From: Candidatus Peribacteria bacterium
GTDB lineage: Bacteria > Patescibacteriota > Gracilibacteria > Peribacterales > Peribacteraceae
Reading direction: 5' to 3'
Assembly (NCBI GenBank): GCA_018652265.1
Contig: JABICL010000006.1
Location: 1-64,000, forward strand
DNA: 64,000 nt
The stretch's first letter is position 1; the number at the start of each line of letters is the position of its first letter. The notes under the pieces were generated by a model. It was not told where the DNA came from, did no database searches, and worked only from the letters and a program-made list of their open reading frames with translations. The translations under genes and the position numbers were made by a program. Below, in pieces: positions 5,478 to 27,918 of this stretch.

Positions 5478-5487
5478 TCCTGATGTT

Positions 5488-5869
5488 CACTCTTTTGTAC
5501 GCCGAGTTCTGTGATACCCAGTAAAGGGTATGATAGCCATCGATCTAGCCTAACTGTTACCAGAAAGGTCAAGCGGAGGGGAATATAGTAGATCGAAACA
5601 AATCTAGATTTCTAGATTCCCAAATCCTCCTTGCACCACCTAGAGTTTATCAATCTTGTTTCTTAGAAAAATAAAGAAACAAAGATCCTCGGTTCCCGAG
5701 GCGTTTCATTCTCACTGTAAAGCGAGACTACGTCTCTGTGACACTAGTCCTTACATGCCTTTACCTAATATATGACATGCAGATGGGCGTTACCCACTAA
5801 GCGTTTCATTGGTGCTCGGACGTTCCTCTGTACTCCGCAAAGCGGAGCAAAGCGACTATCAAAAGAGCG
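5488..5869 (-). ncRNA. rnpB: RNase P RNA
   Basis: Read on the minus strand this is the catalytic RNA of RNase P, which removes tRNA 5' leaders. The 5' conserved block reads AGAGGAACGTCCGAGCACC (family form GAGGAAAGTCCGGGC). Further matches are GTGGGTAACGCCCA, ACAGTGAGAATGAAACG, TAAACTC followed by GTGCAAG, and the 3' block GGCTAGATCGATGGCTATC with CACAGAACTCGGCGTAC (family form ACAGAACCCGGCTTA). Ends are set by a 10-bp P1 helix, CGCTCTTTTG with CAAAAGAGTG. Length is about 382 nt. The A-to-C and G-to-A changes in the first conserved block are unusual. ORFs crossing it are spurious. Confidence 0.92.
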
Positions 5870-5876
5870 GACTGAT

Positions 5877-25876: not shown

Positions 25877-26527
25877 ATGATCAATTTCCAAATCTTCAAT
25901 CAATTTCCAGAAGTAAAGATTCAAATCTTCAATAAAGAAGAGAATTGCAACTCAGATGAAGAAGCAGCTCACAGGCTTGGATTTGAGAGTATCGCTAAAC
26001 TAGAACAAATTCATGGAAATGTTGTACACACAGTTCACAAGCAGCCAGATACAATTCTAAAAGGCGATAGCTTAATCACAAATACTAGAGACGTAGCACT
26101 AGCTATTCGATTTGCAGACTGCCAAGCATTTGCAATATATGCACCGAAAAAACACGTTGTAGGACTTATTCATGCTGGATGGAGAGGAATGGCAGCGAAA
26201 GCTATTACTTCTTTCTTCGAAGAATTAAAAAGAAGGTTTGAAATATCATCAGAAGAAACATTTGTAGGAGGAGCTCCTTCTATTTGCAGTAAATGTGCTA
26301 CTTTTTCTAATCCAGAAAAAGAATTACCACATCATATGCATGAATTTATAGATGGATCGGAAGTAGATCTAATATCAGCATCACAAAAAGAGTTACACGC
26401 TGTAGGAGTACCAAAAGATCACATAGAAATACTCCCAGGATGCACAAAATGTGGAGATGGATACTTTAGTGCTAGAGGTGGCGATATTGATAAGAGAAAT
26501 TATCTTGTTGCTGGAATTGAAAACTAA
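25877..26527 (+). CDS. YfiH/LACC1-family purine nucleoside phosphorylase
   Basis: A 216-residue protein of the multicopper-polyphenol-oxidase-like family (DUF152, YfiH/YlmD). Family motifs are LEQIHGNVVHTV, ADCQAFAIYA, GLIHAGWRGMAAKAI (about 95-109) and a C-terminal GGDIDKRNYLVAGI. The conserved Cys and His residues that bind zinc are present. Studied members cleave adenosine and inosine with phosphate; the old laccase name is misleading. Confidence 0.9.
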   Translation: MINFQIFNQFPEVKIQIFNKEENCNSDEEAAHRLGFESIAKLEQIHGNVVHTVHKQPDTILKGDSLITNTRDVALAIRFADCQAFAIYAPKKHVVGLIHAGWRGMAAKAITSFFEELKRRFEISSEETFVGGAPSICSKCATFSNPEKELPHHMHEFIDGSEVDLISASQKELHAVGVPKDHIEILPGCTKCGDGYFSARGGDIDKRNYLVAGIEN

Positions 26528-26540
26528 TACACAATGATCC

Positions 26541-26554
26541 GCTCGCGTGCTTAA
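26541..26554 (-). repeat. Repeat family E copy
   Basis: The minus strand reads TTAAGCACGCGAGC, identical to the core at 2455-2466 and 51160-51171 over at least 12 bases. It lies just beyond the 3' end of the 6S-like RNA. Confidence 0.6.
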
Positions 26555-26571
26555 CTAGCTTCTTACTTATT

Positions 26572-26724
26572 ATCTCCCGACATCCGTAGAGCACCAGTCG
26601 CTTATTCCCTGGATATACCAGGTGGGGTTCCGCATCCCTCAGCCACAGCCTAGGGTGATTAAGATCCCCTTATAAGAACGATTTTGAAGAGAAAAAGCGA
26701 AAGTACTCTACGTAAGGTCGAGAT
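26572..26724 (-). ncRNA. ssrS: Rod-shaped structured RNA, probable 6S RNA
   Basis: On the minus strand the ends pair: ATCTCGAC with GTCGGGAGAT, then CGTAGAG with CTCTACG, then TCGCTT with AAGCGA. An unpaired 5' side of about 25 bases faces a 3' side holding a small hairpin (CCTGG and CCAGG, 26608-26622), and the distal part folds from GGGG/CCCC to an apical CCCTAGGC hairpin. A closing stem, a large central bubble with a 3'-side hairpin and a long terminal stem are the hallmarks of 6S RNA, which mimics open promoter DNA and binds RNA polymerase. A perfect -10 ends 7 bases before the first base. About 153 nt. The family assignment is inference; the structure is visible. Confidence 0.65.
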
Positions 26725-26731
26725 AAATTTC

Positions 26732-26737
26732 ATTATA
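26732..26737 (-). promoter_or_regulatory. -10 box of the 6S-like RNA
   Basis: A perfect TATAAT on the minus strand, 7 bases before the proposed 5' end at 26724. TTATTG about 16 bases further upstream is a weak -35. The same region must also hold the divergent dgt promoter. Confidence 0.65.
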
Positions 26738-26805
26738 GAACATAAATTGTTAACAATAAAAAGATCTTATGTTGCATAGGATGATATATTGTTACGCGAA
26801 GCTTT

Positions 26806-27918
26806 ATGAAAAATTTAAAAGCACTCATAAGCGGCATGAATTCACTTTTATCTTCTTATGCCATTCCACATGGAACAGGCCTAGGAAGAAACCACGAAGA
26901 GAAAGAAGATGAAACACGAACTCCTTTTCAAAGAGACAGAGATAGAATAATACATACACAAGCTTTTAGAAGGCTTAAACACAAAACACAAGTGTTTGTA
27001 GGTAATAGAGGCTTATCTGATCACTACAGAACAAGACTTACCCACACAATGGAAGTAGCACAGATAAGTAGAGACATGGCTCGCACTCTTTCTTTAAACG
27101 AAGATTTAGCAGAATGCATAGCTCTCGCTCATGATCTTGGACACACTCCATTTGGACACGCTGGAGAAGAAGCTATAAACGAAGAAATGCAAAGATTCGG
27201 CAAAGAATTTGAGCATAACAATCAATCTCTTCGAACAGTAACTATTCTCGAAGAGAGATCTAATAAATATAATGGACTAAATCTAAACCAGGAAGTTTTG
27301 GAGGGACTTATGAAGCACAGAACTAGTTTTGATTCTCCAAGTGATACCGAAATTCCTAGATCACCTAGCCTAGAAGCCCAAATAGTAAATCTAGCAGATG
27401 AAATAGCATACACATCTCATGATATAGATGATGGAATTAGATCTGGAATCTTAAATTCAGATGAATTGGTTAAATTATCACTTTTTGCACGAGCAAAAGA
27501 GTTATCTGATGCAAGTGGAACGGAAGTTAAAAGCTCTGTGATACATATACTTGTGATTGACGCCTACTCTGAAACCGAAAAAAGACTAAAGGAAGCAAAT
27601 ATTTCATCTCTAGAAGATGTATATGCAGCAAAAAATGATCTAATTGCATTTTCTGCAAGCACTACACAAGAGCTTAAGGGTCTAAGAGAATATTTATTCT
27701 CTAATTTCTATAATTCTCCAGAGGTTTTAGTAAATTCAAACAAAGGCAAAGAAATTATCCAAGTATTATTTTCTGATTACGAAAAAAATCCACCAGAAAA
27801 AGTTTTAGAGTTACAAGAAAGAACAAATGGATCACTAGATGAGTCTATAAAAGATTATATAGCAGGTATGACAGATAATTTCGCTATGGAATCAGTATCT
27901 AAGGCAAGTAATACATAG
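26806..27918 (+). CDS. dgt: dGTPase-like HD-domain triphosphohydrolase
   Basis: A 370-residue HD-domain protein related to deoxyguanosinetriphosphate triphosphohydrolase. The N-terminal RTPFQRDRDRIIHTQAFRRLKHKTQVFV motif region is diagnostic, followed by the metal ligands RLTHTMEVAQ (His), ALAHDLGHTPFGHAGEEA (His-Asp) and a later AYTSHDIDDGI (Asp). Family members remove triphosphate from dNTPs. The last 20 bases overlap the convergent M23 peptidase gene. Confidence 0.92.
   Translation: MKNLKALISGMNSLLSSYAIPHGTGLGRNHEEKEDETRTPFQRDRDRIIHTQAFRRLKHKTQVFVGNRGLSDHYRTRLTHTMEVAQISRDMARTLSLNEDLAECIALAHDLGHTPFGHAGEEAINEEMQRFGKEFEHNNQSLRTVTILEERSNKYNGLNLNQEVLEGLMKHRTSFDSPSDTEIPRSPSLEAQIVNLADEIAYTSHDIDDGIRSGILNSDELVKLSLFARAKELSDASGTEVKSSVIHILVIDAYSETEKRLKEANISSLEDVYAAKNDLIAFSASTTQELKGLREYLFSNFYNSPEVLVNSNKGKEIIQVLFSDYEKNPPEKVLELQERTNGSLDESIKDYIAGMTDNFAMESVSKASNT

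Follow-up and report, generated by a model that had tools for sequence, protein, structure and literature searches.

Evidence for a divergent 6S RNA in Peribacteria and other Patescibacteria, with covariation of two mutually exclusive helices

A 64,000-nt stretch of DNA from a Candidatus Peribacteria bacterium (the window) carries the gene of a divergent 6S RNA. We consider it close to certain that this gene specifies an authentic 6S RNA (ssrS) from a patescibacterium of the Peribacteria type, that its transcription runs leftward from its own sigma-70-type promoter, and that it would pass through a cycle of polymerase release. The identification is supported by homology, a conserved fold, a conserved promoter position, a single copy in the genome, and the covariation seen in each of two helices that exclude one another. 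6S RNAs are small RNAs that imitate an open promoter and hold RNA polymerase, acting as a global brake on this enzyme, and Patescibacteria are tiny, mostly host-dependent bacteria. In the open-licence papers searched, we found no description of a 6S RNA in Patescibacteria.

An earlier note on this DNA had described a 153-nt rod with terminal pairing, a central bubble, and a hairpin on its 3′ side. Folding bore out this description on the minus strand, where the RNA runs from about 26724 to 26572; the covariance-model match covered 26567–26730, and the length is approximately 153–164 nt. The 153 nt of the minus strand folded at −63 kcal/mol (z −5.0), with none of 200 dinucleotide shuffles equally stable, and the opposite (plus) strand folded more weakly (−47.9 kcal/mol, z −3.7). 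In the rod, a closing stem led into a bubble whose 5′ strand was unpaired over 21 nt and whose 3′ side carried a 5-bp hairpin, and an apical arm lay beyond (Table 1). This stability and the covariation in 37 relatives described below both indicate the rod architecture of 6S RNAs, in which a central bubble separates the closing stem from the apical arm. The pyrimidine-rich tract of the predicted product-RNA template was almost invariant in the family alignment, and the CCCACCUGG motif ahead of the 3′ bubble hairpin was conserved class-wide.

The plus-strand ATTATA at 26732–26737 reads as TATAAT on the minus strand (26737 to 26732) and is followed by 7 nt before the proposed 5′ end at 26724, in agreement with the spacing given in the earlier note. 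This position was conserved: TAnnnT occurred in the 14 nt preceding the modelled start in 87 of 98 loci, and a control interval yielded it in 18 of 98. A −35-like hexamer (four or more of six positions) was present at a spacing of 16–18 nt in 52 of 98 loci, as compared with 14 in the control. The TATAAT site of the window was absent from the listing of a consensus promoter scan because of its weak −35 element. These sequence patterns point to an independent gene with a putative housekeeping (sigma-70) promoter. The genome (1.07 Mb) encodes seven sigma-70 region-2 matches, a rich set for such a small genome.

Table 1. Features of the 6S RNA gene and its neighbours in the window
Feature	Position	Strand	Basis
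-10 hexamer TATAAT, the RNA's own promoter	26732..26737	-	Sequence and conserved position in relatives
6S RNA gene, 153-nt rod; 5′ end ~26724, 3′ end ~26572	26572..26724	-	Rfam RF00013, R1, R2, fold, covariation
Closing stem P1, 5′ strand	26702..26723	-	Window MFE fold and pairing in 37 relatives
Closing stem P1, 3′ strand	26575..26595	-	Window MFE fold and pairing in 37 relatives
P2 5′ strand UCGCUU, adjoining the bubble; predicted product-RNA template	26695..26700	-	Free-fold pairing with 26598-26603
P2 3′ strand AAGCGA, common to P2 and the collapse helix	26598..26603	-	Fold and covariation
Predicted product-RNA template strand UCGCUUUUUCUCUUC	26686..26700	-	Analogy to B. subtilis 6S-1 (PMC8876501)
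Central bubble 5′ strand, unpaired in free fold	26670..26690	-	Window fold
Distal 5′ bubble UCGUU; collapse-helix partner of 26598-26602 (AGCGA) when template is blocked	26677..26681	-	Pair probabilities and covariation
Apical arm	26624..26669	-	Window fold and helix 6 pairing
3′ bubble hairpin CCUGG-uauau-CCAGG, after conserved CCCACCUGG motif	26608..26622	-	Window fold and helix 7
dgt-like HD-domain dNTP triphosphohydrolase (neighbour, outside the RNA)	26806..27918	+	HD and HD_assoc domains
yfiH-type Cu-oxidase_4 (laccase-domain) gene (neighbour, outside the RNA)	25877..26527	+	Conserved neighbour in family only

An Rfam scan of the 321 bases around the element returned the 6S model RF00013 over its full length (1–187) at 39.7 bits (E 7.3e-7), and the sole other match was a chance snoRNA. 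This score lies below the RF00013 gathering cut-off of 46.4 bits, and the RNA is therefore skipped in routine scans; Rfam scans of the whole window with default filters missed it both at the gathering score and when E values as high as 1 were allowed. The gathering threshold is set for annotation and does not reflect a biological property. RF00013 gave 24 matches in a set of 59 related genomes, two of which were above the cut-off; two weak RF00013 matches among the relatives (L026 and L027) were dropped. The RNA is a divergent lineage of RF00013 below the cut-off and not a family outside 6S. Thus, of the earlier claim of a probable 6S RNA in a new sequence family, the 6S identity and the divergence of the sequence stood and the separate family did not, and the proposed check with the Rfam 6S model yielded a full-length match that did not reach the gathering threshold.

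BLASTN with the window RNA recovered just two relatives beyond itself, since the RNA is too divergent for plain sequence search. A covariance model built from 17 same-family relatives with the window excluded (R1; alignment A3) matched the window RNA at 83.2 bits (E 2.7e-25 for the window, 4.5e-24 for the whole genome), and there was no other match in the genome. The class-wide model R2, built exclusively on members of the window's class (60 sequences), gave 95.6 bits. Weak antisense matches (L041 and L061) were excluded as by-products of the near-palindromic rod. In the fetched stretch of Escherichia coli MG1655, searched with filters off, the best R2 match was at 582–769 (28.4 bits), where ssrS is annotated at 584–766, and the next-best match had only 4.9 bits. 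Because RF00013 matches the RNA and the patescibacterial model finds E. coli ssrS, the 6S homology is seen from both sides. The patescibacterial RNA resembles E. coli ssrS and RF00013 in its rod architecture (closing stem, bubble, and apical arm), in being a single-copy independent gene, and in the full-length covariance-model match in both directions. It differs in being shorter (about 155 nt vs. 183 nt), in that almost no member reaches the gathering score, and in its neighbours, which are not fau/ygfA.

The minimum free-energy (MFE) structure of the window RNA was computed before any relative had been seen and was mapped onto 37 relatives (alignment A5). Standard pairs occupied 84.4% of the cells, as compared with 39–48% when the partners were slid by 1–3 columns. 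Changes on both sides were found in 24 of the 48 pairs, and none of 500 shuffles reached any of the five measures. In closing stem P1, the proportions of paired cells were 79.5, 71.4, and 85.9% for helices 1, 2, and 3, respectively, and all six pairs of helix 3, the middle closing helix, showed changes on both sides. The corresponding values were 91.9% of cells and 7 of 9 pairs for apical helix 6, and 81.3% and 3 of 5 pairs for helix 7, which forms the 3′ bubble hairpin. Compensatory changes preserve the rod fold that had been predicted without reference to other sequences, which was the check in relatives proposed by the earlier note.

R1 found a match in 55 of the 57 genomes of the family (Peribacteria), nearly always as one full-length copy, and in 92 of the 242 class genomes. 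R2 matched 144 of these 242 and 147 of 381 phylum genomes, and these counts are lower bounds owing to the strict filters. Families f5, f7, f14, f15, and f16 yielded few matches or none. RF00013 recovered 4 of the 381 phylum genomes at its cut-off and 28 at E 0.001, and its places coincided with those of R2 in genomes where both were listed. Recovery in the sampled phylum genomes was approximately 1% by the Rfam cut-off versus 39%, a lower bound, by the lineage-specific model. A divergent 6S RNA is widespread across Patescibacteria and almost always missed by standard annotation.

Some members deserve separate description. The locus of one phylum member (G555) showed the canonical 6S rod fold with TATAAT upstream. 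Several members were approximately 55 nt longer (211–215 nt; L055 of genome G002, L136, G013:C5:43897-44111, and G059:C19:39460-39674), and the insertion in G002 sits in the apical arm. R1 gave no match in two family genomes, G068 (99% complete) and G001 (86%). Relatives in the genus of G068 (g18) do carry the RNA; for G068, loss, an assembly gap, and further divergence are the alternatives. Among loci beside dgt relatives, R2 found the RNA in 21 named ones, 20 of which were labelled Peribacteria, Peregrinibacteria, or Patescibacteria, and did not find it in dgt loci of clearly different phyla. The 21st (L130) was labelled Kiritimatiellales and grouped with Peribacteria by sequence and in the dgt tree; this contig is probably misnamed or from a mixed bin.

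In the window, the RNA lies between yfiH and dgt and is directed away from dgt, which confirms the divergent orientation noted earlier. The order yfiH–6S–dgt was conserved in the family, with the RNA preceding dgt and sharing its strand in 29 of 31 loci with dgt in the flank. Such an arrangement might be expected of a cis-acting, riboswitch-like leader of dgt, but in the window and in three further lineages the RNA is oriented away from dgt, a promoter of its own accompanies it throughout, and none of the 41 class loci outside the family has a dgt neighbour. Based on this orientation in the window and the absence of a dgt neighbour elsewhere, we rejected the leader as vanishingly improbable. 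The growth-state link that had been suggested through dgt likewise gained no support, the dgt neighbourhood being found only in the window's own family. Between yfiH and dgt, the gene has flipped its orientation in the window (25877–27918) and in three other Peribacteria lineages (L033, L044, and L141), and these in-place inversions represent four separate changes on the dgt protein tree. A peptidase M50 gene was the 5′ neighbour on the same strand in 15 of the 20 loci from other classes, at a distance of 23–297 nt, and the 5′ neighbour in 19 of the 41 class loci outside the family. The shared M50 neighbour provides sequence-independent evidence that the RNAs descend from one gene. Outside Peribacteria, an M50 gene of the site-2 protease type lay directly upstream, on the strand of the RNA, across several classes (L073, L075, L078, L209, L214, and others). 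The window also contains an RNase P RNA of class A (5482–5871, minus strand, 152 bits).

Two further readings accept a 6S-like RNA and differ in what it does. As the lowest-scoring of the 55 family matches (83.2 bits vs. 89–153 bits in the remaining family), the window RNA could be a decayed, non-functional 6S copy; however, its TATAAT is perfect, its stems are intact, and it is the sole copy in the genome. Moreover, the window dgt is likewise long-branched and of unusual composition, so the RNA is not alone in having diverged, and decay appears extremely unlikely. It is also very unlikely that the RNA is a counterpart of Ms1 from Actinobacteria, which has a 6S-like structure but associates with the sigma-free core of RNA polymerase and does not template product RNA. 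A central bubble is common to Ms1 and 6S (PMC9130861), and the window RNA would, like Ms1, associate with polymerase, its predicted partner being the holoenzyme. Nevertheless, Ms1 is about 300 nt long, has extra hairpins at its ends, binds the core polymerase, and is reported from Actinobacteria only in that paper (PMC9130861), whereas the window RNA is approximately 155 nt and folds without such hairpins. The match to RF00013, the recovery of ssrS by the patescibacterial model, and the conservation of a refolding helix tied to product-RNA release also argue against an Ms1-like RNA and for 6S.

This refolding helix has its counterpart in Bacillus subtilis 6S-1 RNA, in which helix P2 is opened by a product RNA templated by the 5′ bubble. 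Once free, the 3′ strand of P2 forms the central-bubble collapse helix with the distal part of that bubble strand, and a small 3′ bubble hairpin is preformed in the free RNA (PMC8876501). The patescibacterial RNA is similar on both points: its distal 5′ bubble can pair with the 3′ strand of P2, and its 3′ bubble hairpin is already formed in the free fold. The latter differs from E. coli ssrS, and the collapse helix stands in place of the 9-bp release hairpin of E. coli. The patescibacterial RNA differs from 6S-1 in its sequence and in its predicted product RNA, which is purine-rich.

The 3′ strand of P2 overlapped that of the collapse helix in 94 of the 98 RNAs, and both helices covaried. In 70 non-redundant RNAs, permutation across species, which removes relatedness only partly, gave a z of −12.7 for the P2 partners and −10.7 for the collapse helix, whose pairing energy was −6.06 kcal/mol within the same RNA versus −3.84 kcal/mol with the strands of others (0 of 5000 permutations). 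The collapse-helix signal was seen separately in the family, outside the family, and in other classes, and the helix was weak in some families (f18 and f21). When the template was blocked, MFE folds containing the collapse helix increased from 19 to 53 of the 98 RNAs, thus not in all, and the probability of this helix in the window RNA rose from 0.002 to 0.89. Comparative evidence supports an alternative (release) helix driven by product RNA, a feature of 6S RNAs. Both folds look selected, as is expected if the RNA runs through the 6S cycle. The covariation of P2 and the collapse helix supports RNA polymerase release by short product RNAs of the B. subtilis type as the probable mode.

Based on these features, we infer the following cycle for the window RNA, including polymerase binding, a product RNA with its start site, and a growth-phase role. 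The rod with its open centre would mimic a melted promoter and occupy the RNA polymerase holoenzyme containing the housekeeping sigma factor, and transcription would be dampened when nutrients are short. Upon the return of nucleotides, the polymerase would copy the pyrimidine-rich 5′ bubble strand (26686..26700, minus strand) into a product RNA predicted, by analogy, to be about 5′-GAAGAGAAAAAGCGA-3′. Copying would open helix P2, and its freed 3′ strand would pair with the distal 5′ bubble to form the collapse helix, by which the polymerase would be released. This route would be that of B. subtilis 6S-1 and Aquifex rather than that of E. coli.

Beyond the window, we favour, with some reserve, the view that the RNAs constitute an almost entirely unannotated 6S subfamily found throughout Patescibacteria, in which both the polymerase-bound and the released folds are selected and a working 6S/product-RNA switch has been kept, possibly as a main control between idle and growing states in these reduced bacteria. 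The phylum-wide covariation of two mutually exclusive helices also lends support, from evolution and independently, to the model of release through a collapse helix developed in B. subtilis. If the RNA works as proposed, host-dependent bacteria with genomes of approximately 1 Mb would still use RNA-based control of polymerase.
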